Shown piece after piece: positions 3,081 through 62,600 of a DNA stretch of 64,000 nt. A program made the position numbers and the translations under genes. The stretch spans positions 965,039 to 1,029,038 of the forward strand of contig NZ_JABBPD010000004.1 of NCBI RefSeq assembly GCF_012927445.1, given 5' to 3'. This DNA comes from Rhodoferax sp. GTDB lineage: Bacteria > Pseudomonadota > Gammaproteobacteria > Burkholderiales > Burkholderiaceae_C. Position 1 is the stretch's first letter; each line of letters starts with the position of its first letter. The notes under the pieces were generated by a model. The model had not been told where the DNA came from, made no database searches, and saw only the letters and a list, made by a program, of their open reading frames with translations.

Positions 3081-3130
3081 GCCTCTAGCCCTCGTGCAGC
3101 ATGCGCAAACAGCTATAAAAATAATAGCAA
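3081..3130 (+). repeat. Dispersed repeat copy 1 (intergenic, before PBP1A)
   Basis: It starts GCCTCTAGCCCTCGT, continues through ATGCGCAAACAGCTAT and ends AATAATAGC, matching the repeat family of this window in its forward orientation. It lies upstream of the PBP1A gene and contains in-frame start codons that are unlikely to be used. Confidence 0.85.
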
Positions 3131-3150
3131 CTTTACCCTCTGATTCCTGC

Positions 3151-5532
3151 ATGATCAATCTTTCCCAGCTCAAACCCCTTGTTGCAGACCGGCTGCGTCG
3201 CTTGCGCCGCCCCACCCGGCGCGAGTTGGCGTGGGCGCTGGCCGCCGTGCCGGCGCTATTTTTGCTCTACGTGCTGGCGCTGATTCCGTTCACGCCCGGC
3301 ATCAGCGACATCCGCAAGGCCAAGCTGGAGCAGCCGGCGCAGGTGCTGTCGGCGGACGGCAAGCTGCTGACCGAGTTCAAGTGGGCCAATCGTTCCTGGG
3401 TGCCGCTGGACCAGATCGCACCGTCGGTGGTGGCGGCCCTGATTGCCACCGAAGATCACCGCTTTTATCAGCACCACGGCCTCGACTGGCGGCGCACGGC
3501 CGCCGCCGCGTTGAGCACGTTTTCGGGTGAGTTGCAAGGTGGATCGACGCTGACGCAGCAACTGGCACGCAACCTGTATCCGGAGGAAATCGGCCGTGCC
3601 GCCACGCTCAACCGCAAGCTGAAAGAAGCCATCACCGCGCTCAAGATCGAGGCCCTCTACACCAAGCCGGAAATCCTCGAGACCTACCTCAACACCGTGC
3701 CTTTTCTGTACAACGCGGTCGGCATCGAGATGGCGGCGCGCACCTATTTCGACAAATCGGCCGCGCAGCTCGACCTGCTGGAGAGCGCCACGCTGGTCGG
3801 CATGCTCAAGGGCACCAGTTACTACAACCCGGTCCTCAATCCCGAGCGCGCCGAGCAGCGCCGCAACACCGTGCTGGCGCAAATGGTCAAGCGCGACAAG
3901 CTCGATGCCGCCAAGTTTGAGTCGCTGAAAAAACGACCGCTGCGCGTTGAATTTGAGCGCCAGCTCGAACCGATGGGCCCGGCACCGCACTTTGCCCAGC
4001 AACTGCGCAAATGGCTGATCGACTGGGCCGACCGCAACGACTACAACATCTACACCGACGGCCTGGTGGTGCACACCACCCTCGACGCGCGCCTGCAGCA
4101 GGTGGCCAACCAGGTTGTGGCGCGCCAGGGCCGCCAACTGCAAGGCGTGGCCGACGCCGCCTGGCGCCCGCGCACGGTCTGGGGTGAGCGCAACGAGTTG
4201 GTGCAAGCCTTTGTGCGCGAAACGCCCGAGTACCGTCGCGCCATGACCAGCGGGCTCACGGCCAAAGAGGCCCTGAAAAAACTGATGGCGGACACCACCT
4301 TCATGCGCACCCTGCGCGAGCAAAAAACCCGGGTGCAGGCCGGCTTTATGGCGCTGGACCCGAGAAGCGGCCAGATCCGCGCCTGGGTCGGCAGCCGCGA
4401 CTTCGAACAAGATCCGTTTGACCATGTGCAGCAGGCAAGGCGCCAGCCCGGCTCCACCTTCAAGCCCTTTGTTTACGGCGCCGCGTTTGAAAAAGGCGCC
4501 AGCCCCGACGACACCTTCATCGACCAGGCGGTGGAAATCCCACTGCAGGGCGGCGAAGTGTGGCGCCCCGCCGACGACGCCCCGCCCAGCGGCCGGCCCT
4601 TAAGCCTGCGCGACGGCTTGGCCTATTCCAAAAACACCATCACCGCCCAGCTCATGCAAACCGTCGGCCCCGACCGGGTCGCCAAACTGGCACGCGCCAT
4701 GGGCGTGCGGCAAAGCAAGCTCGACCTGGTGCCGTCGCTCGCGTTGGGCACCAGCCCGGTCACCTTGCGCGAGATGGTCAGCGCCTACGCCACCATCGCC
4801 AACGGCGGCGGCTACCTGGAGCCGGTGCTGGTCACCCGCATTGAAAACCGCCAGGGCAAAGTGCTGGCCGAGTTCCAGCCCGCCACCGCCGAGCCCGCGC
4901 TGTCCGCCCAGGCCAACTACACGCTGCTGGACGCGCTGCGCGGCGTGATCGACCGGGGCACCGGCGCCGCCATCCGCAACCGCTACGGCATCCGCGCCGA
5001 CCTCGCCGGAAAAACCGGCACCACGCAAGACAACACTGACGGCTGGTTCATTCTGATGCACCCGCAGCTGGTGGCGGGCGCCTGGGTCGGCTTTAACGAC
5101 GGCCGCGTCACGCTGCGCAGCGACTACTGGGGCCAGGGCGCGCACAGTGCGCTGCCGATCGTGGGCGATTTCACCTCGCAAGCGCTGCGCGCCCGCCTCA
5201 TTGACCCGCGCGTCCGTTTTCTGGAACCGAAAGACACCAGCCTGCTCGGCCCGTTGATGGGCGGCCTGGGCGGTTGGGTCAGGAGCTTGTTTGGCTCGAC
5301 GCCTGTACCGGTGAAACCACCGGAGCCCAGGCCGGCGCCCCTGCCCATCCCGGAGCCCATCCCCGAGCCGCCCCTCATGCCGACATCAGCGCCCGAGGTG
5401 CCGCTGGAGCCGCTGCCGGAAGAAATCATTTTGCCGTCAGAGCGCCTCGATCCGGTGAATGTGGTGCCGCCGGCATCCTCCACCAGTTTGCCCGCAGCAC
5501 CAGCCACGCCAGCGTCTGCACCCAGCTTCTAA
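3151..5532 (+). CDS. mrcA: Class A penicillin-binding protein 1A (glycosyltransferase-transpeptidase)
   Basis: A bifunctional peptidoglycan synthase of about 793 residues, anchored by one N-terminal membrane segment (AVPALFLLYVLALIPF). The GT51 glycosyltransferase domain follows with IATEDHRFYQHHGLDW (catalytic Glu) and GGSTLTQQLARNLY. The transpeptidase domain has S-x-x-K in PGSTFKPF near residue 435, SKN near 493 and KTGTT near 621. A Pro/Glu-rich tail of about 90 residues ends the protein. I start at the ATG at 3151 (MINLSQLKP), because the longer frame begins inside a dispersed repeat. The stop overlaps the convergent VOC gene by 4 bases. Confidence 0.93.
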   Translation: MINLSQLKPLVADRLRRLRRPTRRELAWALAAVPALFLLYVLALIPFTPGISDIRKAKLEQPAQVLSADGKLLTEFKWANRSWVPLDQIAPSVVAALIATEDHRFYQHHGLDWRRTAAAALSTFSGELQGGSTLTQQLARNLYPEEIGRAATLNRKLKEAITALKIEALYTKPEILETYLNTVPFLYNAVGIEMAARTYFDKSAAQLDLLESATLVGMLKGTSYYNPVLNPERAEQRRNTVLAQMVKRDKLDAAKFESLKKRPLRVEFERQLEPMGPAPHFAQQLRKWLIDWADRNDYNIYTDGLVVHTTLDARLQQVANQVVARQGRQLQGVADAAWRPRTVWGERNELVQAFVRETPEYRRAMTSGLTAKEALKKLMADTTFMRTLREQKTRVQAGFMALDPRSGQIRAWVGSRDFEQDPFDHVQQARRQPGSTFKPFVYGAAFEKGASPDDTFIDQAVEIPLQGGEVWRPADDAPPSGRPLSLRDGLAYSKNTITAQLMQTVGPDRVAKLARAMGVRQSKLDLVPSLALGTSPVTLREMVSAYATIANGGGYLEPVLVTRIENRQGKVLAEFQPATAEPALSAQANYTLLDALRGVIDRGTGAAIRNRYGIRADLAGKTGTTQDNTDGWFILMHPQLVAGAWVGFNDGRVTLRSDYWGQGAHSALPIVGDFTSQALRARLIDPRVRFLEPKDTSLLGPLMGGLGGWVRSLFGSTPVPVKPPEPRPAPLPIPEPIPEPPLMPTSAPEVPLEPLPEEIILPSERLDPVNVVPPASSTSLPAAPATPASAPSF

Positions 5533-5948
5533 ACGTCTTGCGGGCCGACCTCGGTCGCGGTGGGTGCCATGCTGATCAACTCCCACAGGTGCCCATCCAG
5601 GTCCTGATAACCATGGCCGTACATAAAGCCCTGGTCCACCGCCGGCCTGGGCGTGGTGGCACCGGCGGCCACGGCTTTCAACACCAACTCGTCCACCTGA
5701 TCCCGGCTCTCGCAGGAGAGACAGATCAGCACTTCGGTGCTTTGAGTGGCATCACAAATCGGTTTTGGGGTGAAGGTCTTGAAGAAGGGCTCTACCAGCA
5801 GCATGACGTAAATATCGTCGCTGACGATCATGCAGGCGGCGTTCTCGTTGGTGAACTGGGGGTTGAATTTGTAGTCCAGCTGGCGAAAGAACTCAACCGA
5901 CTTGGCCAGGTTTTTGACCGGCAGGTTCACATAGATTTGGGTAGCCAT
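5529..5948 (-). CDS. VOC/glyoxalase-family protein
   Basis: A 139-residue vicinal-oxygen-chelate fold protein of the PhnB/YaeR-like type. It begins QIYVNLPVKNLAKSVEFFRQLDYKF, the usual first beta-alpha unit, and ends GYQDLDGHLWELISM, the usual last strand with the metal-ligand-type Glu. The substrate cannot be told from sequence. A clear AAAGGAG precedes the ATG. It converges on mrcA. Confidence 0.8.
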   Translation of the reverse strand: MATQIYVNLPVKNLAKSVEFFRQLDYKFNPQFTNENAACMIVSDDIYVMLLVEPFFKTFTPKPICDATQSTEVLICLSCESRDQVDELVLKAVAAGATTPRPAVDQGFMYGHGYQDLDGHLWELISMAPTATEVGPQDV

Positions 5949-6064
5949 ACGTTCTCCTTTAACGACAAAATTTACAAAAATAGCAGAGGCGATTCACAGC
6001 GTCTAGCGGCAGAGAACACTATGGCGACCGGAGCAAAAATATTCAAACAGCGGGCAACCAGTTG

Positions 6065-6637
6065 TCACAGCGGCTTGAGTACAAAGCCAATCACCAGACC
6101 CTTGTCCGTCACCGTGATGCTGCCCGGCTGCATCCCCAAGCCATCGGCCACCGCCAGGTCTTGCGGGCGCAATTGGTGCAACACCACCTCCTGCAAGGAC
6201 TGCTGCGCCAATTCAGGCCCGTAGAGGTTGAGCAGCTCCGACGCTGCCGGTTGCAGGTCCGCAAAGTGCAGACGCTTAAAGCGCAATTGGTAGGCGCGCA
6301 GGGTGCGGTCACTGGCCTCGTAGCGCAGGGCAAAGTCCACATCGAAGGTGCCCGAGAGGCTGCGCTGCAGTGCCGGGCCGGCGGCCTCGACCGCCATCTC
6401 GGCGCTCACGCGGTTCTGCGCCGGCAGCAGACGCAGGCGCGGCGCCTGCAACGCCAGATCCATCAGGCCCGCCACCGGATACCGCAGCGGAAAACGCTGC
6501 GCCACCGCCTGCTGCAATTGCCCGGCAGACACGGTGTAGCTGGGCTGCGGCTGGGACTGCTCGTCCGGCAACGCCGACTGGGCCAGCCCACTGAGCGCCA
6601 GGCAAGGGACGGCAGTCAAAAAGAATCTGCGATGCAT
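6065..6637 (-). CDS. DUF1439-type exported protein
   Basis: A 190-residue protein with an N-terminal signal sequence (RRFFLTAVPCLALSGLAQSA) and then a body typical of DUF1439/YceB-like proteins: YTVSAGQLQQAVAQRFPLRYPV, a repeated beta-strand region and the ending ITVTDKGLVIGFVL. E. coli YceB is a lipoprotein; here a Cys lies inside the hydrophobic stretch (VPCLALSG), but the lipobox is not clearly formed, so it may be periplasmic or a lipoprotein. The precise role of the family is unknown. Confidence 0.7.
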   Translation of the reverse strand: MHRRFFLTAVPCLALSGLAQSALPDEQSQPQPSYTVSAGQLQQAVAQRFPLRYPVAGLMDLALQAPRLRLLPAQNRVSAEMAVEAAGPALQRSLSGTFDVDFALRYEASDRTLRAYQLRFKRLHFADLQPAASELLNLYGPELAQQSLQEVVLHQLRPQDLAVADGLGMQPGSITVTDKGLVIGFVLKPL

Positions 6638-6721
6638 TCATGTCCTCCAGAGCAGTCTTGATTGTGCGCCGCAGACCAGAATCGCCCAAGCTATGCGGTT
6701 ATTACCCAATGCGCCACCGGC

Positions 6722-6783
6722 CCCGCGCACCACCGCCGGCCGCGCCACAGATGCCGCCAGCATCCGGGTCACGCTCGGGAAAT
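6722..6783. repeat. Duplicated 3' fragment of the GST gene (left copy)
   Basis: These 62 bases match 7926-7987, the last coding part of the GST gene on the minus strand, with five mismatches and in the same orientation. Translated on the minus strand this copy reads FPSVTRMLAASVARPAVVRG, against FPNVTRVLAAFVARPAVVRG in the intact gene. The two copies bracket the nucleotidyltransferase gene, like the arms of an integration event. Confidence 0.85.
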
Positions 6784-6825
6784 TCTGCCTGCTCACCCGA
6801 AACATCACCACTAGATTCAATTTAT

Positions 6826-6869
6826 CGAATATAAATATACCGTAACTTATTGTTTTATATAAATATTCG
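6826..6869. promoter_or_regulatory. AT-rich inverted repeat upstream of the nucleotidyltransferase gene
   Basis: CGAATA at 6826 is mirrored by TATTCG ending at 6869, with AT-rich sequence (ATAAATATA, TTATATAAAT) between. The base composition is far lower in GC than the surroundings and contains several -10-like hexamers. It is a likely promoter region and possible operator for the gene starting at 6903; no protein is known to bind it. Confidence 0.4.
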
Positions 6870-6902
6870 GCAGACAACTTTAAATAGCATTAATATGCCG
6901 AA

Positions 6903-7844: not shown

Positions 7845-7862
7845 TTTTTTGAATCAAATCAA

Positions 7863-7910
7863 GCACCAGCCCCCGTCACATCTTCGCAAGCCGCTATCAA
7901 ATCAGGACCG
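7863..7910 (+). repeat. Dispersed repeat copy 2 (overlaps the GST stop)
   Basis: Contains CACCAGCCCCCGTCAC, then TTCGCAAGCCGCTATC and AAATCAGGA, in the forward orientation. It overlaps the stop codon end of the minus-strand GST gene. Confidence 0.8.
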
Positions 7911-8606
7911 CTTAGGAATCTCCAGCCCGCGCACCACCGCTGGCCGCGCCACAAAGGCCGCCAGCACCCGGGTCACGTTCGGGAAATCTGGCATGCCGAC
8001 CAGCTCACCGGCCTCGTAGAAGCCGATCAGGTTGCGCACCCAGGGGAAGGTGGCGATGTCGGCGATGGTGTAGGTGTCGCCCATGATCCAGGCGCGGTTG
8101 GCGAGCCGCTGCTCCAGCACGGCGAGCAGGCGTTTGGACTCGGCCACATAGCGGTCACGCGGGCGTTTGTCTTCATAGTCTTTGCCGGCGAACTTGTGGA
8201 AGAAACCGAGTTGGCCAAACATCGGGCCGATGCCGCCCATCTGGAACATCAGCCACTGGATCGTCTCATAGCGCTGCGCCGCCTCCGGCGGGAGGCAGTG
8301 GCCGGTCTTTTCGGCCAGGTACAGCAGGATCGCACCGGACTCGAACAACGCCAGCGGCTTGCCGCCGGGCCCGTTGGGGTCGAGGATGGCCGGAATCTTG
8401 TTGTTGGGATTGAGCGAAAGAAACTCCGGCGACAGCTGGTCTTGCGTCTCAAAGCTGACCAGATGCGGCTCGTACGCCAGGCCGCTCTCCTCCAGCATGA
8501 TCGACACCTTGACGCCGTTGGGCGTGGGCAGCGAGTAGAGTTGCAGCCGCTCAGGATGCTGGGCGGGCCACTTGTGGGTGACGGGGAAGGCGGAGAGATC
8601 GGTCAT
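7902..8606 (-). CDS. Glutathione S-transferase-family protein (YfcG/YghU-like)
   Basis: A 234-residue cytosolic GST. The N-terminal thioredoxin-like domain has LYSLPTPNGVKVSIMLEE and the glutathione-binding segment NNKIPAILD...LFESGAILLYLAEKTG. The helical domain has the N-capping segment TYTIADIATFPW. The TPNG segment and FESGAILLYLAEKTG are close to E. coli YfcG and YghU, which reduce disulfides and organic hydroperoxides. I start at MTDLSAFP at 8606, preceded by AAGGA. The last 24 codons lie in a segment duplicated at 6722, and the stop lies in a dispersed repeat. Confidence 0.85.
   Translation of the reverse strand: MTDLSAFPVTHKWPAQHPERLQLYSLPTPNGVKVSIMLEESGLAYEPHLVSFETQDQLSPEFLSLNPNNKIPAILDPNGPGGKPLALFESGAILLYLAEKTGHCLPPEAAQRYETIQWLMFQMGGIGPMFGQLGFFHKFAGKDYEDKRPRDRYVAESKRLLAVLEQRLANRAWIMGDTYTIADIATFPWVRNLIGFYEAGELVGMPDFPNVTRVLAAFVARPAVVRGLEIPKRS
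7926..7987. repeat. GST gene 3' segment (right copy of the direct repeat)
   Basis: Right-hand partner of the 62-base direct repeat at 6722-6783. It belongs to the intact GST reading frame and is the likely original of the pair. Confidence 0.85.
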
Positions 8607-8634
8607 GGCGGTTCCTTGAAAGGGAAACGGGCGG

Positions 8635-10319: not shown

Positions 10320-10336
10320 TGATATATACCAAATAG

Positions 10337-10385
10337 GCCTCTAGCCCCCGTCCCACCTGCGCAAGCCGCTATTAAATAAGGAGCG
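10337..10385 (+). repeat. Dispersed repeat copy 3
   Basis: One of the best copies: GCCTCTAGCCCCCGTCCC, then CTGCGCAAGCCGCTATTAAA and TAAGGAGCG. It lies between alkB and the 3' end of the minus-strand Fic gene. Confidence 0.9.
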
Positions 10386-10409
10386 ATATCGCCTCGCTGT
10401 CTTGGCAAC

Positions 10410-11640: not shown

Positions 11641-11691
11641 TTTGTTGAATCGGCTCAGGCGACGTGGCCTGACAGGTAAAACTTTATGAGG

Positions 11692-11744
11692 AATCAGGCT
11701 CTAGCCCGCATTAAATAATGCGTGAGAAGCTCTCAAATCAGGAG
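11692..11744 (+). repeat. Dispersed repeat copy 4
   Basis: AATCAGGCTCTAGCCCGC, a variant middle with GCATT/AATGC arms, then GTGAGAAGCTCTCAAATC. It lies directly downstream of the minus-strand toxin gene. Confidence 0.75.
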
Positions 11745-11754
11745 TTTTGATCAA

Positions 11755-12295: not shown

Positions 12296-12394
12296 TGGGA
12301 CCTCCAGAATGTGGTTAATAGTGCGATTGATGGTACGCCATATGCCACGATTAGGCAAACAGCTTGCGGGTTTGGAGGGCATGAATTTATAAGA

Positions 12395-12448
12395 AATCAG
12401 GCTCTAGCTCCCGTACTACATTCGTGAGAAGCTATTAAATAAGGAGCG
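12395..12448 (+). repeat. Dispersed repeat copy 5
   Basis: AATCAGGCTCTAGCTCCCGT, then TTCGTGAGAAGCTATTAAAT and AAGGAGCG. It lies downstream of the minus-strand VOC gene and upstream of the toxin-antitoxin pair. Confidence 0.88.
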
Positions 12449-12501
12449 AACGCTAATCGGATAAGCGCATCAAGTGACCCGCCTGCGCGCTGCGGTCTGA
12501 C

Positions 12502-12882: not shown

Positions 12883-13023
12883 AGCTTTCTCCGTTGGAGC
12901 CCTTGATTGGGCGAAAGTGGACCGGGTGGATGGTAGGCGATCCGCGCCAGCGCCGCAGCTGACGAGGTACACCGCGCCCACTTGGCGGGATCAGCAGGTG
13001 CTGCACCTGCAAATTTATTGCTC

Positions 13024-13081
13024 GAATCAGGCTCTAGCCACCGTATTACCTGAGTGAGCAGCTATTAATTAATTAAATAGC
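13024..13081 (+). repeat. Dispersed repeat copy 6
   Basis: AATCAGGCTCTAGCCACCGT, then CTGAGTGAGCAGCTATTAAT and TAATTAAATAGC. It lies between the VOC gene and the small frame before the reverse transcriptase. Confidence 0.88.
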
Positions 13082-13108
13082 AACTAGAAATCCAAGGCAC
13101 CTCGGACA

Positions 13109-25465: not shown

Positions 25466-26796
25466 GTCCGCACTTCGCCGTCGCCCAGCACCACGTACTT
25501 GAGCGAGGTCAGGCCTTCAATGCCGACCGGGCCACGGGCGTGGAACTTGTCGGTGCTGATGCCGATTTCGGCGCCCAGACCAAACTCAAAACCATCGGCA
25601 AAGCGGGTGCTGGTGTTGACCATGACACTGGCGGAATCGACCTCGCGCAGAAACTGCTGCGCGTGCATGTGGTCGCGCGTGAGGATGGCATCGGTGTGGT
25701 GCGATGAATACTGGTTGATGTGGGCAATCGCCTGGTCCACGCCGTCCACCAGTTTGATGCTGATGATGGGTGCCAGGTATTCCTCGTACCAGTCGCTCTC
25801 CTGCGCCAGTACCAGACTGGGCGCCGAAGTTGCTCCTGAATTAATAGCTGCCAGCGCATGTACCACGGGGGCCAGAGGCATATTTGACTGCAAAATAGCC
25901 AGCGACTCGGCATCGCAGCGCATCTCGACCCCTTTGTCGGCGTAAATCCGGCCGATCAAGGGCAAGAATTCAGCCGCCACGCCGCGCGCCACCAGCAAGC
26001 CCTCGGTCGCGTTGCACGGGCTGTATTTGCTGGTTTTGGCGTTGTCGGCCACTCTGACCGCCATCGCGATGTCGCACGGATCATCGACATAGACATGGCA
26101 ATTGCCGTCCAGATGCTTGATGACCGGCACTTTGGCGTCGCGGCTGATGCGCTCGATCAAGCCCTTGCCGCCGCGCGGAATGATCACGTCCACGTACTGC
26201 GGCATGGTGATGAGCTGGCCCACCACCTCGCGGTCGGTGGTTTGCACCAGCTGCACCGCATCGACCGGCAAACCGCTGTCGGCCAAGGCCTGTTGCACCA
26301 GCAGCGCCAGTGCCTTGTTGGACTCAATCGCCTCCGAGCCGCCGCGCAAGATGCAGGCATTGCCGCTCTTGATCGACAGGCTGGCCGCTTCAATCGTCAC
26401 GTTCGGCCGGCTCTCGAAAATCATGCCGAAGACGCCAATCGGCACCCGCATTTGGCCGACCCGAATACCGCTGGGTTGCTGCTTCATGCCGATGATCTCG
26501 CCAATCACGTCCGCCATGGCGGCCAGCTGTTCACAGCCCTGGGCGCAGGTTTCCAGCACCTGGGGCGTGAGCTTGAGCCGGTCCACCATCGGCGCCGCCA
26601 AGCCCGCTGCCACCGCGCGCTCAATGTCTTTGGCGTTGTCGATTTGCAGTGGCGCCACGTTGGCGCGCAGCAGTTCGGCCAGCTTGCGCAACGCTCTGTT
26701 TTTGGTAGCAGCTTGCGCTTTAGCCATCAGGGCTGAGGCCTGTTTTGCCTTGGAACCCAGGGCCTGGGTGTAATCGACGATGTTGAGGACGTTCAT
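25462..26796 (-). CDS. proA: Gamma-glutamyl phosphate reductase
   Basis: A 444-residue enzyme of proline synthesis that reduces glutamyl-5-phosphate with NADPH. Motifs include the signature [13 protein letters not shown] and GNCHVYVDD near the active site, and the substrate-binding region [24 protein letters not shown] start at [10 protein letters not shown] (26796). Residues of about 305-320 ([17 protein letters not shown]) are translated from a copy of the dispersed repeat, an insertion that E. coli ProA (417 residues) lacks. It follows holA by 28 bases. Confidence 0.94.
25833..25880 (-). repeat. Dispersed repeat copy 7, inside proA and translated
   Basis: Read on the minus strand: GCCTCTGGCCCCCGTGGTAC, ATGCGCTGGCAGCTATTAAT, TCAGGAGC. 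It keeps the frame and encodes about 16 residues between two conserved blocks of proA. Confidence 0.85.
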
Positions 26797-28412: not shown

Positions 28413-31109
28413 TTACACCACCAGATTGACCAGACGCCCCGGCACCACAATGATCTTCTTGGGGCTCGCCCCTTCGGCCAGCTTCAGAAAAATCTCGCTG
28501 CTCGTCGCCGCCAGTTCGATCTCGGCCTTGGACGCGCCCGCCGGCACCACGATGGCGCCGCGCAGCTTGCCGTTGATCTGCAGCATCAGTTCAATTTCAT
28601 CCTGCACCAGGGCCGCTTCATCCGCCACCGGCCAGGGCGCATCCAGCAAATCGCCGTACTGGGCCGCGTAGCCCAACTCGTCCCACAGCGCGTGCGTCAG
28701 GTGCGGCGTCGCCGGGTAAATACTGCGCAGCAGCATGCCCAAGCCTTCCCGCACCGCCGCCCGGCTGCCCTTGGAACTGTCGTCGTTGAAGTTTTCCAGC
28801 GCATTGAGCATCTTCATCGCGCCCGACACCACCGTGTTGTACTGCATGCGCTGGTAGTCGTAATCGATCTGTTTGAAGATGGTGTGGATTTCCAGCCGCA
28901 GGGCTTTGGCTTCCTTGCTGAAATTTATATCTTTCAGGCCTGTAGCCCCCGTCCCGCCTGCGCGACCAGCTCCTGTATCGATAGCAGACTGCTTGACGCC
29001 AAAATTCCAGACGCGGCGCAGAAAACGGTACGAACCCTCCACCCCGGCGTCGTTCCACTCCAGCGTGGCCTCGGGCGGTGCGGTGAACATGGTGTACAGG
29101 CGCGCCGTGTCGGCGCCGTATTTCTCGATCAGATCCTGCGGGTCGACGCCGTTGTTTTTGCTCTTGCTCATGGTGCCGACACCTTCGTAGGTGATGAGCG
29201 TGCCGGCCGGCAGATCGCCCTTGGCCTGGCGGAGTTTGGCGCCGATGACCTTGCCGGCTGCGTCCTGGATGTCTTCCACCTCGTGCGGCCAAAAGTACTC
29301 CATGCCGCCCTTGTCGGCTTTGCGTGAGTAGATGTGGTTCAGCACCATGCCCTGCGTCAGCAGCTTGGTGAAAGGCTCATCGACCTTGACCAGACCGAGG
29401 TCGCGCATGACCTTGGTCCAGAAACGGGCGTACAGCAAATGCAGGATGGCGTGTTCGATGCCGCCGATGTACTGGTCCATCGGCATCCAGTAGTCCGCGC
29501 CGGCGCCGACCATGGCCTGGTCGTTCTGCGGGTCGCAGTAGCGCATGTAGTACCAGCTGGAATCGACGAAGGTGTCCATGGTGTCGGTTTCGCGCCGTGC
29601 GGCCACGCCGCAGATCGGGCAGACGACGCCGGCGTGGAAGCCTTCATGCTTGTGCAGCGGGTTGCCCGAGCCGTCCGGCACGCAGTCCTGCGGCAACACG
29701 ACCGGCAAATCTTTCTCGGGCACCGGCACGGCGCCATGCTCCGGGCAATGAATGATCGGGATCGGTGTGCCCCAATAGCGCTGGCGGCTGACACCCCAGT
29801 CGCGCAGGCGCCAGGTGGTTTTTTTCTCGCCCAGGCCTTTCAGCAGCAGGGCATGGCTCACGGCGTTAACTGCATCCTTGAAGGCCAAGCCGCTGAAGCT
29901 GTCGGAGTTGATGGTGACGCCGCGCTGCTTGTCGCCATACCAGTCCTGCCACTGGTCGTAGTCGTATTCCAGGCCATCGACCAGCACCACTTCCACGATG
30001 TCAATGCCGTATTTCTTGGCAAAGGCAAAGTCGCGCTCGTCATGCGCCGGCACGCCCATGACGGCGCCGTCGCCGTAGCTCATCAGCACGTAATTACCAA
30101 CCCAGACTTCGACCTGATGGCCGGTCAGGGGATGGGTCACGAACAGGCCGGTCGGCATGCCTTCTTTTTCCCGCACCGCCAGTTCCGCCTCGGTGGTGCC
30201 GCCTTTTTTGCACTCTTCGATGAAGGCGGCCAGTTTTGGGTTGGTCTGGGCGGCATGCGTGGCCAGCGGATGCTCGGGCGCCACCGCGCAAAAGGTCACG
30301 CCCATGATGGTGTCAGCCCGCGTGGTGAAGACGTACAGGCGGCCATCGTCAATCAACTTGCCAGTGGCATTTTTGATGTCGTGCAGGAAGGCGAAGCGCA
30401 CGCCCTCGCTCTTGCCGATCCAGTTTTCCTGCATCAGCTTGACGCGCTCGGGCCAGCCCGGCAGGCCGGTCTTGACGTGCTCCAGCAGCTCGTCGGCGTA
30501 GTCGGTGATCTTGAGGTAGTAGCCCGGAATCTCGCGTTTTTCCACCACGGCGCCGGTGCGCCAGCCCTTGCCGTCGATCACCTGTTCGTTGGCCAGCACG
30601 GTCATGTCGACCGGGTCCCAGTTGACGACCTGGGTCTTGCGGTAGGCAATGCCTTTTTCCAGCATCTTCAGGAACAGCCACTGGTTCCATTTGTAGTATT
30701 GCGGATCGCAGGTGGTGACCTCGCGACTCCAGTCCACCGCCAGCCCCATCGCCTGCATCTGCTTCTTCATGTAAGCGATGTTCTCGTAGGTCCACTGGGC
30801 TGGTGGCACGCCGTTCTTCAACGCGGCGTTCTCGGCCGGCAGGCCAAAGGCGTCCCAGCCCATCGGCATCAGCACGTTGTACCCATTCATGCGCAGGTAG
30901 CGCGAGAGCATGTCGTTGATGGTGTAGTTGCGCACATGGCCCATGTGCAGCTTGCCGCTCGGGTACGGCAGCATGGAGCAGGCGTAAAACTTCTTTTTCT
31001 GCTTGCCCTGCGCGTCACGCGCGTCTTCCAGCACGCGGTAGGCATCCACCGCCGTCCATTGGGCGTGGGCCGCTTTTTCGACGTCGATATGGTTGTATTT
31101 TTCTTGCAT
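28413..31109 (-). CDS. leuS: Leucyl-tRNA synthetase
   Basis: A class I aminoacyl-tRNA synthetase of 898 residues. The HIGH motif is HMGH in [17 protein letters not shown] near residue 50, the editing domain contains [12 protein letters not shown] and the KMSKS loop is MSKSK at 647-651. E. coli LeuS has 860 residues; part of the difference comes from residues 708-726, translated from a dispersed repeat ([17 protein letters not shown]) in the C-terminal anticodon-binding region. It is followed by lptE and holA in one transcript. Confidence 0.96.
28935..28986 (+). repeat. Dispersed repeat copy 8, inside leuS and translated
   Basis: Forward orientation: AGGCCTGTAGCCCCCGTCCC, then CTGCGCGACCAGCTCCTG and TCGATAGCAG. 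It lies antisense to leuS, keeps the leuS frame and encodes a Gly/Ala-rich stretch of about 17 residues. Confidence 0.88.
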
Positions 31110-36527: not shown

Positions 36528-37517
36528 ATGCTCAACATCTTTACGCTCGCCAATGGTCGACTCTTCCAGGAAGAGATCGAGTCACTGGAAGAACTGTCAA
36601 ATTTCCAGCCGATCTGGGTCGATCTGGAATCACCGACCCTCGAAGAAAAACGCTGGGTCAAGCAGTATTACGGCCTGTCCATCCCGGAAGATGCGATGGA
36701 CGAGGACATTGAAGAGTCGGCACGCTTTTACAAAGAAGACAACGGCGAGCTGCATATTCGCAGCGACTTTTTGGTCGCCGACGACACCGAGCCCCACACG
36801 GTGCGGGTCGCCTTCATCCTGAACCTGGTGAATGACGAGCTCAAGAGCAAGGGCGTACTCTTTTCCATTCACGATGAAGACGTCCCCGTGTTCCGCTTGC
36901 TGCGGATGCGGGCACGCCGCGCCCCCGGTCTGATTGAAGACGCGAAGGAAGTGCTGCTCAAGCTGTTCGACGCCGACGCCGAATACTCGGCCGACACGCT
37001 GGAAGGCATTTACGATGAACTTGAAATCGTCAGTAACAAAGTGCTGTCCGGCAACATGACAGATGCCTTGGCCGGCGAGGTGCTGGGCGCCATTGCCCGC
37101 CATGAAGACATGAGCGGGCGCATTCGCCGCAATGTAATGGACACCCGCCGGGCCGTGAGTTTCATGATGCGCAGCAAGATGCTCAATGGCGAGCAGTTTG
37201 AAGAAGCGCGCCAAATTTTGCGCGACATGGATTCGCTGGACTCGCACACGGCATTCCTGTTCGACAAGATCAACTTTTTGATGGATGCCACCGTGGGTTT
37301 CATCAACATCAACCAGAACAAGATCATCAAGATTTTCTCGGTGGCCAGCGTGGCGCTGCTGCCGCCGACCTTGATTGCCAGTGTCTATGGCATGAACTTG
37401 AAGTTTCCGGAGCTGGAGTTTCTCGGGGCTTTGAGTTACCCGTACACGGTGGCCCTGATGGTGGCCAGCGCGCTGGTGCCCATGTGGTATTTCCGCAAAC
37501 GTGGCTGGCTTAAGTAA
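36528..37517 (+). CDS. corA: CorA-family divalent metal transporter
   Basis: A 329-residue pentameric magnesium/cobalt channel. The long cytoplasmic N-terminal domain precedes two C-terminal membrane helices; the first ends with the defining YGMN motif (SVYGMNLKFPELE), the second is YTVALMVASALVPMWYF. A basic end RKRGWLK follows. The AAGGGAG ribosome binding site lies 7 bases before the ATG and can be sequestered by the upstream leader. Confidence 0.94.
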   Translation: MLNIFTLANGRLFQEEIESLEELSNFQPIWVDLESPTLEEKRWVKQYYGLSIPEDAMDEDIEESARFYKEDNGELHIRSDFLVADDTEPHTVRVAFILNLVNDELKSKGVLFSIHDEDVPVFRLLRMRARRAPGLIEDAKEVLLKLFDADAEYSADTLEGIYDELEIVSNKVLSGNMTDALAGEVLGAIARHEDMSGRIRRNVMDTRRAVSFMMRSKMLNGEQFEEARQILRDMDSLDSHTAFLFDKINFLMDATVGFININQNKIIKIFSVASVALLPPTLIASVYGMNLKFPELEFLGALSYPYTVALMVASALVPMWYFRKRGWLK

Positions 37518-37520
37518 AAA

Positions 37521-37572
37521 AGGCTTGCAGCCCTTGCACCACCTGCACAAGTCGCTACTTTTTTGGTAGCAG
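37521..37572 (+). repeat. Dispersed repeat copy 10 (between corA and mtn, overlaps the mtn stop)
   Basis: AGGCTTGCAGCCCTTGCACC, then CTGCACAAGTCGCTACTTTT and TGGTAGC in forward orientation. The stop codon and last residues of the minus-strand mtn gene lie inside it. Confidence 0.75.
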
Positions 37573-38316
37573 CTGCAAGAACTGCCCGATGATGGCCTGG
37601 GCGTAATGGCGGGCGACCTCGGTCACGAACTGGGGGAAATCCACATGCGCCTGGTCATCGGCACGGTCCGAGATGGTGCGCATCGCCGCAAACGGTACCC
37701 CGTAGTCAAAACACACCTGCGCGACGGCGGCGCCCTCCATTTCCACGGCCAGCGGGATAAAACCGCCCGCCTGCAAGGCCTCTTGCAAAACACGTGATTC
37801 GGAGGCGCCGGAAACAAAGCGATCCCCGCTGGCAATCAGCCCGGAATGGACCGAGGCACTTGCATGCCACTTATTTTGCTCAAAATGGCTTCCAGCCCCC
37901 GTCAATCCTGCGTGAACAGCTTCCAAAAGGATAGCACTCAGGGCCTCATCGCAGGCAAAGCGGGAGCGGTCATAGAGCGGAATCTGGTAGCGCGGGAAAA
38001 TCGGCGAGGCATCCATGTCGTGCTGCACGAACTCCGTGGCCACCACCACATCGCCCACCTGAACCCCCGGCCCGACACCGCCCGCCACCCCGGTGAAAAC
38101 AATCCGGTTAACGCCAAACGCCTCGATCAGGGTCGTGGCGGTGGTCGCCGCCGCCACCTTGCCCACTCTGGACAGGCCCAGCACGACGCGGTGGCCGTGC
38201 AGTTCCCCGCGCCAAAAGTCGCGTCCGGCCCGTGTGAGTTGGACCGGGTTCGTCAGTTGCTCAAGCAGGCCCTGCTGTTCTTCGAGCAGGGCACTGAGAA
38301 TGGCGGTCGTGGTCAA
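37555..38316 (-). CDS. mtn: 5'-methylthioadenosine/S-adenosylhomocysteine nucleosidase
   Basis: A 253-residue nucleoside hydrolase that recycles SAM by-products. Signature parts are ILSALLEEQQGL, FTGVAGGVGPGVQVGDVVVA, VEMEGAAVAQVCF (the nucleoside-binding Glu-Met-Glu) and ISDRAD with the catalytic Asp. Residues of about 127-143 (LLEAVHAGLTGAGSHFE) are translated from a dispersed repeat, and the C-terminal residues come from another copy. This makes it longer than E. coli MtnN (232). It lies immediately downstream of fadD's convergent-free end on the same strand. Confidence 0.92.
   Translation of the reverse strand: MTTTAILSALLEEQQGLLEQLTNPVQLTRAGRDFWRGELHGHRVVLGLSRVGKVAAATTATTLIEAFGVNRIVFTGVAGGVGPGVQVGDVVVATEFVQHDMDASPIFPRYQIPLYDRSRFACDEALSAILLEAVHAGLTGAGSHFEQNKWHASASVHSGLIASGDRFVSGASESRVLQEALQAGGFIPLAVEMEGAAVAQVCFDYGVPFAAMRTISDRADDQAHVDFPQFVTEVARHYAQAIIGQFLQLLPKK
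37887..37935 (+). repeat. Dispersed repeat copy 11, inside mtn and translated
   Basis: GGCTTCCAGCCCCCGTCAAT, then CTGCGTGAACAGCTTCCAAA and AGGATAGC in forward orientation, antisense to mtn, frame preserved. Confidence 0.82.
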
Positions 38317-43695: not shown

Positions 43696-44811
43696 ATGGA
43701 CAAGCAACACATTGGACAACGGGTGGTAGTGGGTTTGAGCGGAGGCGTCGACTCGGCGGTGACCGCCTGGCTGCTGAAGCAACAAGGCTATGAGGTCATC
43801 GGCATCTTCATGAAGAACTGGGAAGATGACGACGACTCGGAGTTCTGCTCTTCCAACATCGATTTTGTCGACGCGGCCGCCGTGGCCGACGTCATTGGCA
43901 TTGAGATTGAGCACGTCAACTTTGCAGCGGAGTACAAAGACCGAGTATTCACCGAGTTCTTGCGCGAATACCAGGCCGGGCGCACGCCGAACCCGGATAT
44001 TTTGTGCAATGCCGAGATCAAGTTCAAGGCGTTTCTGGACCACGCGCTGCGCCTTGGTGCGGAAAAAATTGCCACCGGCCATTACGCCCGGGTCCGCCTG
44101 AACGACGCCACCGGCAAGCATGAGCTGCTCAAGGGCCTGGACCCGTCCAAGGACCAAAGCTACTTTCTGCACCGGCTGAACCAGGCGCAGCTGTCCAAAA
44201 CGCTGTTCCCGGTGGGCGAACTGCTCAAAACCGAGGTGCGTCGCCTGGCCCTGGAGATTGGTCTGCCGAACGCCAAAAAGAAGGATTCCACCGGCATCTG
44301 CTTCATTGGCGAGCGGCCGTTCCGCGACTTCCTGAACCGCTACATCGCCAAGGAACCCGGCCCCATCAAGGATGACAAGGGTCGCACCATTGGCCAGCAT
44401 GTCGGCTTGAGCTTTTACACGCTGGGCCAGCGCCAGGGTCTGGGCATCGGCGGCATCAAAGCCAAAGGCGCACAAAAAGGCGGTGGCGAGCACGCCCCCT
44501 GGTTTGTCGCGCGCAAGGACATGGAAAAAAACACGCTGTGGGTGGTGCAGGGGCACGAGCATCCGTGGCTGCAGTCCTTCACGTTGACGGCGCAAGATGC
44601 CAGCTGGGTTGCCGGCACGGCGCCGGTCGCCGGTCAGTTGTCGGCCAAAACCCGCTATCGCCAGGCCGATGCCACATGCACACTGGCCGCGGGCGCCGGT
44701 GACACATTCAACCTGACGTTTCCCGACCCGCAGTGGGCCGTGACGCCCGGCCAGTCGGCGGTGCTGTACGACGGAGAAGTGTGCCTGGGCGGCGGCGTGA
44801 TTAGCGCTTGA
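43696..44811 (+). CDS. mnmA: tRNA-specific 2-thiouridylase
   Basis: A 371-residue enzyme that thiolates U34 of Lys, Glu and Gln tRNAs. The PP-loop is [15 protein letters not shown] at residues 11-25. The catalytic Cys pair lies in [12 protein letters not shown] and [15 protein letters not shown]. The C-terminal domains end with [17 protein letters not shown]. It is in a two-gene unit with the nudix hydrolase. Confidence 0.95.
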
Positions 44812-44813
44812 TA

Positions 44814-44867
44814 CGCTATTAATTTAATAGCTACTTGCGCACAATTGACGGGGGCTAGCGCCCAATT
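44814..44867 (-). repeat. Dispersed repeat copy 12 (after mnmA)
   Basis: The clearest copy for structure. On the plus strand GCTATTAATTTAATAGC is a perfect palindrome, followed by ACTTGCGCACAATTG and ACGGGGGCTAGCGCCC. It lies 2 bases after the mnmA stop, between convergent genes. Confidence 0.9.
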
Positions 44868-44881
44868 TCCTATAAATCCGC

Positions 44882-57208: not shown

Positions 57209-57382
57209 CTTGATCCATGTCGATGACTTGGACAAAGCGGTCAAGGAATGCCTGAAATGAAATTTTCTCTGCAGGCTGTCGACTGGATGGACGCCCGGGC
57301 TGAGTGAAGGGCGGCGGCAGACCCCTCCTGCCGCCCTTGCAGGATGCCTGGCTTGCACACACTCCAACTCAGTTGGGCTAGG

Positions 57383-57616: not shown

Positions 57617-57639
57617 GTTACTGGCGACTCACCCCGTCA

Positions 57640-57678
57640 AGAAAAAAGGCCCGTAGCGTTGATGCCACGGGCCTTTTT
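57640..57678. terminator. Bidirectional Rho-independent terminator
   Basis: AAAAAAGGCCCGT and its mirror ACGGGCCTTTTTT form a long stem flanked by A- and T-runs, so it works in both directions: for the small gene on the plus strand and for ssb on the minus strand. Confidence 0.88.
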
Positions 57679-57694
57679 TACAAAAACGTGCTGA

Positions 57695-58192
57695 TCAAAA
57701 TGGAATGTCGTCGTCCATATCGTCAAACCCACTCGCAGGCTTGGCTTGTGCCGGGGCCTGACGTGGCGCAGACGCCGGAGCCTGGGGACGTGAGGCGGGT
57801 GCCGGGCGGGAATAACCGCCGCCAGAGCCTTCATCGTCGTGGGAGGGTTCGCCCATGCCTTCACGGCCACCGAGCATCTGCATTTCATTGGCGATGATGT
57901 CGGTCGCGTATTTCTCTACGCCGTCTTTGTCGGTGTACTTGCGGGTCTTGATGCGGCCTTCCACATAGACGGGACGGCCCTTCTTCAAATACTGGCCCGC
58001 GATTTCGGCCAACTTGCCGAAAAACGTGACACGGTGCCACTCGGTCTCTTCGACCATGTTGCCATCCTTGCCCTTGTACTTGCTGCTGGTGGCAATGGTG
58101 ATATTGGCCACAGCGTCGCCACTGGGCAGGTAACGGACTTCGGGGTCGCGCCCCAAGTTGCCCACGAGAATGACTTTATTAACGGATGCCAT
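57695..58192 (-). CDS. ssb: Single-stranded DNA-binding protein
   Basis: A 165-residue SSB. The OB-fold begins [24 protein letters not shown], with [29 protein letters not shown] near residue 50. A Gly/Pro/Ala-rich linker leads to the acidic tip DMDDDIPF that docks repair and replication partners. It is flanked downstream by a strong terminator and upstream by the MFS gene. Confidence 0.96.
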
Positions 58193-58270
58193 GGTTTTCC
58201 TTTTTAAAGTGTTGAGGACAGAGCTTGCAGCGATGCTGCGACGGTCGGTCCCGCAAGATCCAGAATTTGA

Positions 58271-59482
58271 TTATCCCGCCTTTGCCACCAGCCCCGGCGC
58301 ATTGGCAACCGGGGCCCGCATCGGCCAGGCCACCACCAGCCACAACAGCATGCCTGCGGCACAGCCGGCAAACAGGCCCTGCGCGCCCAGGTGCTTGACC
58401 AGCCAGCCGCCCAGCACGCCACCGGCAAAAAATCCCAGTGATTGCAGCGTGTTGTAGACCCCCATGGCGGCGCCGCGGGCATGCGCCGGGGCCACACGCG
58501 ACGCCAGGCTGGGTTGACTGGCTTCCAACACATTGAAGCCACAGAAAAATACAAATAACAAAACAGCCAGAGCGCTCACACTCGGTGCGCCTGAAGCGGC
58601 CACAAGCCAAAAGCCGAGCTGTACCACGGCGATCAAGCCCACCGCGGTCAAAAACACAGCCCGCAGGTAACCCCGCTTCTCCAGCGGGAACAGCGTGCTG
58701 CCCATGACAAAGAACGAGGCCAAGACCGCAGGCAGGTACACCCACCAATGGTGCTCATGCGGCAAACCCGCTTGCACCAGCAGGGCGGGCACCGCCATCC
58801 ACATGGCCAGCTGGACCGCGTGCAGCACAAACACGCCAAAATTGAGACGCAGTAAGGCCGGCAGGCGCAGCACCTCCAGCAGACGGCCACGCGGCATGTT
58901 TTTATGTTGCAAAGGCTCGGCCGGCACCCACCAGATGACCACGGCCACGCCCGCCAGCGCCAAAGCGCCCGTCATCACAAACAGCCCCGCCAGCCCGATA
59001 TGCGCCACCAGCAAAGGAGCAGCCACCAGTGACAGCGCAAACATCAGCCCGATGCTGGCCCCCACCAGCGCCATGGACTTGGTGCGCACCACATCCCGGG
59101 TCTGGTCTGCCAGCAAGGCGGTCACAGCCGCCGAGACGGCGCCGGCCCCCTGCACCGCACGGCCAATCGCCAGCCAGGTCAGGCTGGGCGCCCAGGCTGC
59201 CACAAAACTGCCGGCGGCGAACAGCAGCAAACCAAACACAATGACCCGTTTGCGCCCCAGCCGGTCCGACGCCATGCCATACAGGAATTGCAGCATGGCC
59301 TGCGTCAAGCCATAAATACCCATGGTCAGGCCAATCAGGGTCGGATCATCCCCGCCGGGGTACTTGGCCGCTTCGATCGCAAACACCGGCAATATCAGGA
59401 ACAGCCCCAGCATGCGCAGGGCAAAAATAGTGGCCAGCGAAAAGCTGGCGCGCCGTTCCTCAGGCGTCATCACGCTGGCCAT
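58271..59482 (-). CDS. MFS transporter
   Basis: A 403-residue major-facilitator protein with about twelve membrane segments. It has GLTMGIYGLTQAMLQFLYGMASDRLGRKRVI, with the D-R-x-G-R-K-R signature of loop 2-3, and a second-half match near GVYNTLQSLGFFAGGVLGGWL. It looks like a drug/proton antiporter (YajR/EmrD-like), substrate unknown. I start at MASVMTPEE (59482); the longer frame upstream is not membrane-protein-like and runs toward the divergent uvrA. It is a common neighbour of uvrA-ssb in betaproteobacteria. Confidence 0.87.
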   Translation of the reverse strand: MASVMTPEERRASFSLATIFALRMLGLFLILPVFAIEAAKYPGGDDPTLIGLTMGIYGLTQAMLQFLYGMASDRLGRKRVIVFGLLLFAAGSFVAAWAPSLTWLAIGRAVQGAGAVSAAVTALLADQTRDVVRTKSMALVGASIGLMFALSLVAAPLLVAHIGLAGLFVMTGALALAGVAVVIWWVPAEPLQHKNMPRGRLLEVLRLPALLRLNFGVFVLHAVQLAMWMAVPALLVQAGLPHEHHWWVYLPAVLASFFVMGSTLFPLEKRGYLRAVFLTAVGLIAVVQLGFWLVAASGAPSVSALAVLLFVFFCGFNVLEASQPSLASRVAPAHARGAAMGVYNTLQSLGFFAGGVLGGWLVKHLGAQGLFAGCAAGMLLWLVVAWPMRAPVANAPGLVAKAG

Positions 59483-59671
59483 GACAGGGATTTTTCCAGC
59501 CGACGGGGTAGCAACTTTAGGCAAAACAGCGTTCTCCAACAAACAAGTCCGTGAACGATCACGGCGGCACAAGCGCTGAATTGTCCCCGATCTGCCGCCG
59601 CCCTGGCCCGGCCGCGTGTCAACACGGCCATCTTTCACTATCATTGTGGGTTTTCCCGAGCACATTTCACC

Positions 59672-62600
59672 TTGAACTCCCCCACCGACGGCACCTCCCT
59701 CGCAGCTTCCTTGCAGCTGCAGACCATCAGCATTCGGGGTGCGCGCACCCACAACCTCAAGAACATTGATCTTGATATTCCGCGCAACCAGCTGGTGGTC
59801 ATCACGGGGTTGAGCGGTTCCGGCAAATCCAGCCTGGCGTTTGACACGCTGTATGCGGAGGGCCAGCGCCGTTACGTGGAGAGTCTGTCAACCTATGCGC
59901 GGCAGTTTTTGCAGTTGATGGACAAGCCCGATGTGGATGTGATCGAGGGCCTGAGCCCCGCCATCTCGATCGAGCAAAAGGCCACCTCGCACAACCCGCG
60001 CTCCACGGTGGGCACGGTGACCGAGATCCACGACTACCTGCGGCTGCTGTTTGCCCGCGCCGGCACCCCCTTTTGCCCCGACCATGGCCTGCCGCTGCAG
60101 GCCCAGACCGTGAGCCAGATGGTGGACGCGGTGCTGGCCATGCCCGCCGAGACCCGGCTGATGATTCTGGCGCCGCTGGCGCGTGAGAAAAAGGGTGAGT
60201 TCCTCGACGTCTTTGCCGACATGCAGGCGCAAGGCTATGTGCGCTTTCGCGTCAACGGGCAAGCGTATGAATTTGACCAGTTGCCGCCGCTGAAGAAAAC
60301 CGAAAAGCACGACATTGACGTCGTGATTGACCGCGTCAAAGTGCGCCCGGACACCGAGCCGCTGGCGCGAGACCAGCTGCGCCAGCGGCTGGCCGAGAGC
60401 TTTGAAGCCGCCTTGCGGGTCGCCGGCGGCCGCGCCATTGCCCTAGAAATTGATAGCACGCCACGCAATGGCGACGGGGGCCAGAGCCCCAAAGAGCACT
60501 TATTTAACGCCAAATTCTCCTGCCCGGCGTGCAGCTACTCGATCAGCGAGCTGGAGCCGCGCCTGTTTTCCTTCAACTCGCCGGTCGGCGCCTGCCCGGC
60601 CTGTGACGGCTTGGGCATGCAAGAGTTTTTCGATCCAGTTCGGGTGGTCGCGTTCCCGTCGCTCAGTCTGGCCAGCGGCGCCATCAAGGGCTGGGACCGG
60701 CGCAACGGTTACTACTTTGCCTTGCTGGAGAGCCTGGCCAAGCACTATAAGTTTGACATTGAGCAGGCCTTTGAGTCGCTGCCGGCCGAGATTCAGCACG
60801 CCGTACTGCAGGGTTCTGGCGAGGAAGAAATCAAGTTCAGCTACGTGATGGACTCGGGTCCCGCCCGAGGCGACACCAGCATCGCACAAGGCAAAAAGCT
60901 CAGCAAGAAGCATCCGTTTGAGGGCATCATTCCCAACATGCAGCGGCGCTACAAGGAGACCGACTCGGCGCTGGTGCGCGAAGACTTGGCACGCTACCGC
61001 AGCACCCAGCACTGCACTGAATGCGCAGGCTCCCGGCTGCGGCGGGAAGCGCGGCACGTCAAGATTGGCGAGGGCGCGCAAGCCCGTGCCATCTTCGAGA
61101 TCAGCCACGCCACCCTGCGCGACGCCTTTACTTACTTCAACACCCTGCAAATGCACGGTGCCAAGGGCGAAATCGCCGCCAAAGTGGTGCGTGAAATCGG
61201 CTTGCGGCTGAAGTTTCTCAACGACGTGGGACTGAACTACCTCAGCCTGGACCGCAGCGCCGAAACCCTCAGCGGCGGCGAGTCGCAGCGCATCCGGCTG
61301 GCGAGCCAGATCGGCTCCGGCCTGACCGGCGTGATGTACGTACTGGACGAGCCCAGCATCGGCCTGCACCAACGCGACAACGACCGCCTGATCGACACCC
61401 TGAAACACCTGCGCAACATCGGCAACAGCGTGCTGGTGGTCGAGCACGACGAAGACATGATGCGCGCCGCCGACCATGTGATTGACATGGGGCCGGGTGC
61501 CGGCCTGCATGGTGGGCGCGTGATGGCGCAGGGCACGTTTGACGAGGTCAAAGCCAACCCGGATTCACTGACCGGCCAGTATCTGGCGGGCAAGCTCAAA
61601 ATTGCGATCCCGAAACACCGCACGCCCTGGCTGCCCACGGTGCACGCGGCGCATTCGGCTGACAAATACCAATCCAAGCACCACGCGCCCAGCCCGGCCG
61701 CCGAGCGCCGGGCGGCGCGTGAGGCCAACCACCTGGCGACCCAAGGCGACATGCAGTCACTCCGGGTGATCGGCGCCACCGGTCACAACCTCAAAGACGT
61801 GACGGTGGAGTTCCCGGTCGGCCTGTTCACCTGCGTCACCGGCGTCTCAGGTTCCGGTAAATCCACCCTGGTCAACGACACGCTGTACACGGCAGTCGCG
61901 CGCACGCTGTACCGCGCCCACGACGAGCCGGCGGCGCACGAATCGATCGAAGGCATCGAGCATTTCGACAAAGTCATCAACGTCGACCAATCCCCGATTG
62001 GCCGTACGCCGCGTTCCAACCCAGCCACCTACACCGGCCTGTTCACACCGATTCGCGAGCTGATGGCCGAGATGCCAATGGCGCGCGAACGCGGCTACGG
62101 CCCCGGGCGCTTCAGCTTCAACGTGGCCGGCGGCCGCTGCGAAGCCTGCCAGGGCGACGGCATGGTCAAAGTGGAAATGCACTTTTTGCCCGACGTCTAC
62201 GTGCCCTGTGACGTTTGTGCCGGCAAGCGCTACAACCGCGAAACACTGGAAGTGCTGTACAAGGGCAAGAACATCGCGCAAATTCTGGACCTCACGGTGG
62301 AGGCCGCCTACGAGTTCCTGAAAGCACTGCCCAGCATTGCCCGCAAGCTGCACACGCTCCTGGACGTGGGTCTGAGCTACATCCGCTTGGGACAAGCCGC
62401 CACCACGCTGTCTGGCGGGGAAGCGCAGCGCGTCAAACTGGCGCTGGAGCTCAGCAAACGCGACACCGGGCGCACGCTCTACATCCTGGACGAACCGACC
62501 ACCGGCCTGCACTTTGCCGATATCGACTTGCTGCTCAAAGTGTTGCACCAGCTGCGAGATGCGGGCAACACGATTGTGGTCATCGAGCACAACCTGGACG

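Follow-up and report, generated by a model that had tools for sequence, protein, structure and literature searches.

Uptake sequences have a short core, occur in thousands of copies, are used at gene ends and are maintained by drive. Repetitive extragenic palindromic (REP) elements, considered here together with the REP-associated tyrosine transposases (RAYTs), are present as hundreds of short copies that prefer gene ends and fall into genome-specific types. For the uptake sequences (DNA uptake sequences, DUS; uptake signal sequences, USS), dialects in related species are described in PMC3630211; the repeat reported here is longer than the REP elements whose size is given in PMC3733652. Rickettsia palindromic elements are about 150 bp long and palindromic, and they lie in frame inside unrelated conserved genes (Ogata 2000, 2002; PMC10969869). 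The beta-proteobacterial repeat element (BRE) is about 90 bp long with 69% GC in Bordetella, is tandem at some loci, and has 4 copies listed in R. ferrireducens (Hot 2011, PMC3110155). In the present work, we describe a dispersed repeat of about 66 bp in a 64,000-nucleotide stretch of a Rhodoferax sp. genome (contig NZ_JABBPD010000004.1, positions 965,039 to 1,029,038, hereafter the window), in the rest of that genome (designated G000; 3.94 Mb, 10 contigs) and in its relatives in the Comamonadaceae.

Compared with the DUS and USS of Neisseriaceae and Pasteurellaceae, the repeat is similar in having one dominant variant in G000, related variants in relatives and copies in both orientations, inside genes and at gene ends, that are maintained by DNA sequence. 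It is unlike them in its length with two arms, its hundreds of copies, its true insertions and the mixture found in some genomes. Similar to the Rickettsia palindromic elements, it is a short repeat translated in frame inside unrelated conserved genes. An initial annotation of the window had proposed this likeness; it holds for the in-frame genic copies but is not supported for the mechanism, since the arms of the G000 dialect do not pair, the unit is less than half as long, most copies examined are intergenic (19 of 104 lie in genes), and maintenance at the DNA level, old shared sites and one proA site without an insertion do not suit insertion of the Rickettsia kind. With REP/RAYT systems the repeat shares hundreds of short copies, a gene-end preference, genome-specific types and, in some dialects, a palindromic form; on the other hand, the arms of the G000 dialect are unpaired, and the presence of a Y1 transposase is neither sufficient nor needed throughout the family sample. 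BRE is likewise a short beta-proteobacterial repeat that includes Comamonadaceae and has some copies inside coding sequences, but on its description it was kept separate, as length, GC (44% here) and copy number differ. Thus, uptake-sequence dialects and in-frame Rickettsia elements are nearest in behaviour, and BRE is the nearest named beta-proteobacterial repeat. No description of the element was found among the matches listed by the literature searches, whose scope left subscription journals largely outside, and in two REP papers the genus names looked for were absent, save for one mention of betaproteobacteria.

The results presented below lead us to propose, tentatively, that the repeat serves as a motif for DNA recognition, about 66 bp long, and that a putative trans-acting system maintains it in place. 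The copies are maintained in place at the DNA level at several sites, they form dialects, they are lost collectively in some lineages, and they are tolerated in frame. The DNA-level conservation holds inside genes too; there, loops of the protein accommodate the encoded peptide.

The anatomy of the element was derived from 99 copies, none of which has more than 3 core mismatches. Information content exceeds that of the flanks from about -19 to +46 around the core, so the unit, at about 66 bp, is longer than the 45-60 bp first assigned to it. An AT-rich start is followed by the left arm GCC(T/G)CTAGCCCCCGT, a free 6-base spacer and the right arm TGCGCAAGCAGCTAT; the AT tract after these mostly ends in TAGC or GAGC. 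The flanks of different copies are unrelated to each other, and no inverted repeat ends were seen on inspection of the consensus; copy-free sites are strongly diverged. When the consensus is read in sense, the sole stop-free frame yields PLAPVxxAQAAIK, and the other two hit TAG or TAA; copies inside genes are in frame because the other sense frames carry stops and would break the gene.

A search of G000 with the pattern CTAGCCCCCGT-N7-GCGCAAGCAGCTAT, allowing up to 3 mismatches, gave 200 matches (99 and 101 on the two strands), compared with 0 for a reversed control pattern; matches beyond the window are abundant. Within the window, a profile trained on 94 copies, all outside it, recovered 12 of the 13 places first listed, with scores between 14.3 and 64.5 bits (E values from 0.0013 down to 3e-19), and the 21 control sequences, each 64 kb long, gave at most 7.5 bits. 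The remaining place, 32021 in a tolQ/exbB-like gene, was rejected as a copy (0.4 bits, E = 29); hence, of the five in-frame genic copies initially claimed, those in proA, leuS, mtn and uvrA stand and the one assigned to exbB falls. One additional element-like stretch was found at the proA start (E 4e-4). Both orientations occur, as had been stated. The places are as follows:

3068..3132, + strand, element copy, intergenic (54.7 bits, E 3e-16)
7846..7907, + strand, element copy filling the gap of a convergent gene pair (34.3 bits)
10321..10387, + strand, element copy between convergent genes (56.8 bits)
11682..11745, + strand, diverged element copy with one extra spacer base (24.0 bits)
12385..12450, + strand, element copy, intergenic (46.0 bits)
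13017..13085, + strand, element copy, intergenic (34.7 bits)
25828..25895, - strand, element copy in proA, on the same strand as proA, encoding a 19-residue peptide (52.9 bits)
26690..26750, - strand, element-like stretch at the proA start, formed in place without insertion (15.9 bits)
28921..28988, + strand, element copy in leuS, antisense to leuS (30.7 bits)
37510..37574, + strand, element copy spanning the mtn 3' end and stop codon (18.7 bits)
37873..37937, + strand, element copy in mtn, antisense to mtn (30.2 bits)
44811..44877, - strand, element copy filling the gap of a convergent gene pair (64.5 bits)
60463..60504, - strand, diverged element copy in uvrA, antisense to uvrA (14.3 bits, E 0.0013)

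At 7846..7907, one gene stops 2 bp before the copy and the other overlaps its far end. The uvrA copy, in a gene identified as UvrA by NCBIfam, is the weakest accepted, and its match is limited to model positions 3-44. The arm spacing is identical in 11 of the 12 valid window copies, the 11682 copy being one base longer; in the genome-wide set the spacing is imposed by the search pattern and proves nothing. At Rfam gathering scores, the window had no match.

Maintenance by substitution is seen at the N-terminus of proA, where a 14-residue stretch has equal length and similar residues in congeners and outgroups. In copy-bearing genomes, the codons of this stretch resemble the motif, including its right arm AAGCGCAAGCAGCTA and AT tract. 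The site was first noticed while about 20 kb was being scanned in 8 genomes, where its E values were 7e-6 in G000 and 1.5e-9 in G212. When each gene was resampled 300 times with the protein preserved and codons drawn from its own usage, none of the 300 resamples reached the observed score in any of the 12 genomes with at least 12 copies; observed scores ran from 6.5 (G201) to 32.6 bits (G212), and resamples in these genomes reached at most 17.2 bits. The same stretch scored 0 bits in all 10 genomes with at most 8 copies and in all 3 outgroups. Similarly, in leuS, 17 of the 66 readable loci (86 were given, with G212 and G205 each present twice) exceeded all resamples, 12 of them above 17 bits; the excess includes Rhodoferax antarcticus and R. 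bucti, and other loci encoding much the same peptide gave none. In mtn (16 loci, 2 not readable), 5 of the 8 readable copy-rich genomes beat all 300 resamples (29.3 bits in G000 and 3.7 to 12 in the others), 2 of the 8 were borderline, with 1 and 2 of the 300 resamples against them, and all 6 copy-poor genomes scored 0. Thus, the motif arises and stays in place by substitution at the proA N-terminus, which is one case; insertions also occur.

The sites themselves are shared between species. A 19.9-kb part of the window with five copies was compared with seven relatives, in alignable parts only, and all five copies have a counterpart in at least one of the seven. Counterparts of the leuS copy were found in G212, G121, G249 and G269; the 37.5-kb copy at the mtn 3' end recurs in G212 and G249 at an unchanged position; the 44.8-kb copy is at the same site in G249, G212, G260 and G269; and the copy inside mtn has a weak counterpart in G121 (11.2 bits). 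For the proA insertion, counterparts of at least 33 bits were found in G221, G121, G204, G211, G218 and G209, with 48.5 bits in G121. In G205, no match was seen in the syntenic 19.9 kb, and the proA insertion scored 0. At the 44.8-kb site, the intergenic one with the most samples, arms agree between species at 0.73 and spacers at 0.28 (10 pairs), the latter being about the level of unrelated G000 copies, whose spacer letters agree at 0.305 and whose arm letters agree at 0.92, a figure helped by the selection of low-mismatch copies. There is little sign of recent copying of the element: compared pairwise at variable positions, copies are only a little more alike than after column shuffling, the excess of similar pairs that recent duplication would give is slight, and there is one clear near pair (L028/L072).

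Copy number across the genus gives a second line of evidence. It was counted in 60 genomes, G000 included, with a pattern that ignores dialect-specific letters. The distribution is bimodal: 25 of the 60 have 50 to 553 copies, 34 have at most 12 and one has 26, with 0 to 5 matches to a reversed control pattern. Some low counts stem from incomplete genomes; G205 is 100% complete and has 4 copies (control 1), compared with 276 in G000. On a 30-genome Tex tree built without the insert, G205 is the sister of G000 (support 95/92), and a second copy-poor clade (G255, G219, G202 and G253, with 2 to 4 copies) is nested among copy-rich genomes. In addition, genomes with more copies give higher profile scores at the tex copy (Spearman 0.875, n = 30; 0.866 without G000) and at the proA insertion (0.81, n = 20; 0.78 without G000), values that count for less than they seem because kinship of the genomes makes them overstate independence. 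The profile used for these scores was trained partly on the G000 tex and proA copies, and not on its leuS, mtn or proA N-terminal sites. The two losses on the Tex tree are the firmer point.

Copies inside genes include true insertions. A stricter test of 14 candidates placed 9 in the PLAPV frame, 3 in the open antisense frame and 1 in another sense frame, and one (L015, 2228, 4 mismatches) is probably a chance match. Besides the four window genes, the hosts are purL (two copies), tex, mutL, where the copy sits between the two MutL domains, cobU, and genes for an enoyl-CoA hydratase, an AddA-like helicase, a CaiB-type transferase, a putative aminopeptidase and a YdjC-like protein; the tex host gene had no NCBIfam match at E 1e-30. 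Compared with solved structures, the copy adds about 18 residues in proA (4ghk) and about 17 in tex, and the first and second purL copies add about 7 and about 11 net. The extra proA segment is common to part of the genus, and other congeners and 9 sequences from other families lack it; the tex copy, decayed to differing degrees, occurs in much of the genus. The other families and solved structures compared have none of the added residues of proA, tex and purL. The initial view of a dispersed Comamonadaceae family with in-frame copies in conserved genes is thus borne out.

The placement of copies was determined for 104 of them, mostly the best-matching (99 with at most 3 core mismatches), so that old diverged copies are under-counted. 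According to a gene caller based on codon score, 19 are in genes, 26 in convergent, 49 in tandem and 5 in divergent gaps, with 5 unknown. Convergent gaps are strongly favoured: they hold 26 of the 80 intergenic copies, compared with 335 of the 8421 intergenic bases of the window (6198 are tandem and 1888 divergent). Two exact matches were found on viral contigs and one weak match on plasmids. A dense cluster of copies within about 12 kb (L012 and L036-L039) was also seen on G000 contig C5 at about 85-99 kb.

The dialects were surveyed in a family sample of 200 genomes; the G000 form is matched once or more in 42 of these, and a palindromic form in 30. G000 is nearly uniform, with 0 matches to the palindromic form against 200 to its own, and mixed dialects occur in G121, G221 and G245. 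The forms of G035 include TAGCCCATGT..TGCTCAAGC, those of G113 include TAGCCGGCGT, G268 and G238 have many copies with GCCCTTAT..ATAAGGGC, and G121 has many with GCGCTTAT..ATAAGCGC. Between species, the arms change in a compensatory manner (GCCC/GGGC in G238 and G268 against GCGC/GCGC in G121); therefore, a hairpin may matter in those dialects. At L113:1470-1570, a long inverted-repeat form followed by T runs resembles a two-way terminator.

For the proposed recognition motif, the following mechanism may be considered. A putative DNA-binding factor would recognise the motif, and loss of this factor would let all copies decay. The maintaining force, of which we are less sure, might be a drive such as sequence-biased DNA uptake with recombination, by analogy with the uptake sequences of Neisseria and Haemophilus; it would act at any site and could steer synonymous codons. 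Drive is preferred here because one site among hundreds would be selected too weakly to steer the synonymous codons of proA. A fuller version, which is possible but rather unlikely as a whole, is that the repeat is an undescribed long recognition signal of the Comamonadaceae, a composite uptake-like or self-recognition motif with species dialects, which would spread by insertion and point substitution, enter essential genes via synonymous codons and in-frame loops, collapse genome-wide upon loss of its reader and leave peptide scars.

Several observations weigh against maintenance by such a system. The trans-acting factor is itself postulated. To our knowledge, the uptake sequences known so far are all short, and here no shorter core is over-represented: 9 shorter sub-patterns of the element showed no enrichment once full copies were masked. 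The insertions in proA and tex are real and are not made by uptake drive alone, and the preference for convergent gaps need not follow from pure drive. Not every genome with copies conforms: the proA N-terminus has 6.5 bits in G201 and 11.1 in G203, and decayed copies occur in some copy-rich genomes, with 0 bits at mtn in G220, 0 at the proA insertion in G212 and G201, and between 6 and 11 at tex in G258, G204 and G268. At the proA N-terminus of G205, a single resample got as high as 18.9 bits. At the 37.5-kb site, the contrast of arm and spacer is absent (0.57 and 0.61, 3 pairs). Finally, G250 lacks all five copies of the compared stretch, only the proA N-terminal stretch being matched, and relatives have copies without a G000 counterpart at 36.8 kb (G260, G269), at 38.5 kb (G269) and twice at about 46 kb (G212); therefore, the set of copies turns over.

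The other explanation outside this frame is that of old selfish insertions with later decay, in which a short selfish element, mobile in the manner of REP/RAYT or the Rickettsia palindromic elements, went through bursts of insertion, the conserved copies being younger and the in-frame copies harmless survivors. We consider it unlikely, although it would account for the real insertions in proA and tex, the sharp ends of the element, its preference for gene 3' ends, the palindromic form of some other dialects and the copies of relatives that G000 lacks. The sole Y1 transposase (RAYT-like) gene found in G000 also takes its last residues and stop codon from an element copy (L031:1118-1175), and G120, G121, G035 and G146, like G000, have a copy at a comparable distance beyond the Y1 domain. 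Y1_Tnp is present in 53 of the 60 congeners, in all 26 with at least 26 copies and in 27 of the 34 with at most 12 (Fisher p 0.016); the seven without it are all copy-poor, and several of the seven are incomplete. However, the copy-poor genomes that have it include G205, G202, G219 and G254, and in the family sample it is present in 17 of 21 genomes with at least 10 matches versus 130 of 179 others (p 0.6). The four with at least 10 matches and no Y1_Tnp are G095, G196, the 74% complete G040, and G141, which is 99% complete and has 28 and 44 matches to the two forms. Around the Y1 genes of copy-bearing genomes, 21 loci (70 kb) contained 7 matches at E<0.01, no more than the general density. 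Y1 thus does not suffice for copies and is missing from some genomes that would need it, and it fits poorly as the sole driver; some link between Y1 and the copies is possible. The five copies at sites common to other species, the similarity at variable positions barely above that of column shuffles, and the proA N-terminal site without insertion also speak against such bursts. As a separate observation, G015 (L121, L327) has 180 palindromic-form matches alongside 20 Y1 transposase matches.

The main alternative within the frame of a recognition motif is that a chromosomal protein, of the nucleoid or connected with replication, binds the DNA at the copies, and that ordinary purifying selection keeps each of them. 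Conserved arms with a free spacer, nearly equal strands and DNA-level constraint inside genes would all be expected of such sites; on the other hand, to keep hundreds of sites singly, selection would have to be strong at every one of them, some copies are clustered (L012), and copy-poor sister genomes live without copies; we regard this explanation as quite unlikely. It is highly improbable that the copies serve at gene ends as transcription terminators or as RNA elements of another type. Such a role is suggested by the 26 convergent versus 5 divergent intergenic copies, by the strong hairpin of the palindromic dialect and by a possible 3' hairpin GCTAT..ATAGC, whose five pairs can form in 99, 97, 97, 76 and 94 of the 99 G000 copies. 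However, that hairpin is short and AT-rich, and its changes are mostly one-sided (4 double changes); the arms of the G000 dialect do not pair, an alignment fold retaining three pairs with an energy of -0.31 and the strongest of all column pairs being adjacent columns; and sense copies lie inside essential genes, where termination would harm. An inert repeat homogenised by ectopic gene conversion between copies is hardly credible. Genome-specific dialects and an excess of identical spacers (20 pairs versus 3.7 under column shuffling) are what conversion would give, but conversion would copy the spacer too, and the paralogues in G000 have divergent spacers between conserved arms. Between species, spacers agree at 0.62 in leuS and 0.41 in tex, which argues against overwriting from other copies, with coding constraint contributing; one tex spacer is common to G000, G260 and G269, again possibly helped by coding constraint.

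If the repeat is indeed a motif maintained in place, sister species with hundreds versus almost no copies form a natural experiment, and the maintaining factor could be found by comparison of gene content. The data also suggest that the motif may, in the long run, influence which codons are used and give essential enzymes additional loops, and unusual protein loops in Comamonadaceae may be scars of DNA-level drive, not adaptations. Apart from the element, the window contains a 76-bp direct repeat, 86% identical, at 6722-6797 and 7926-8001, 1.2 kb apart, which is perhaps a duplicated gene part.

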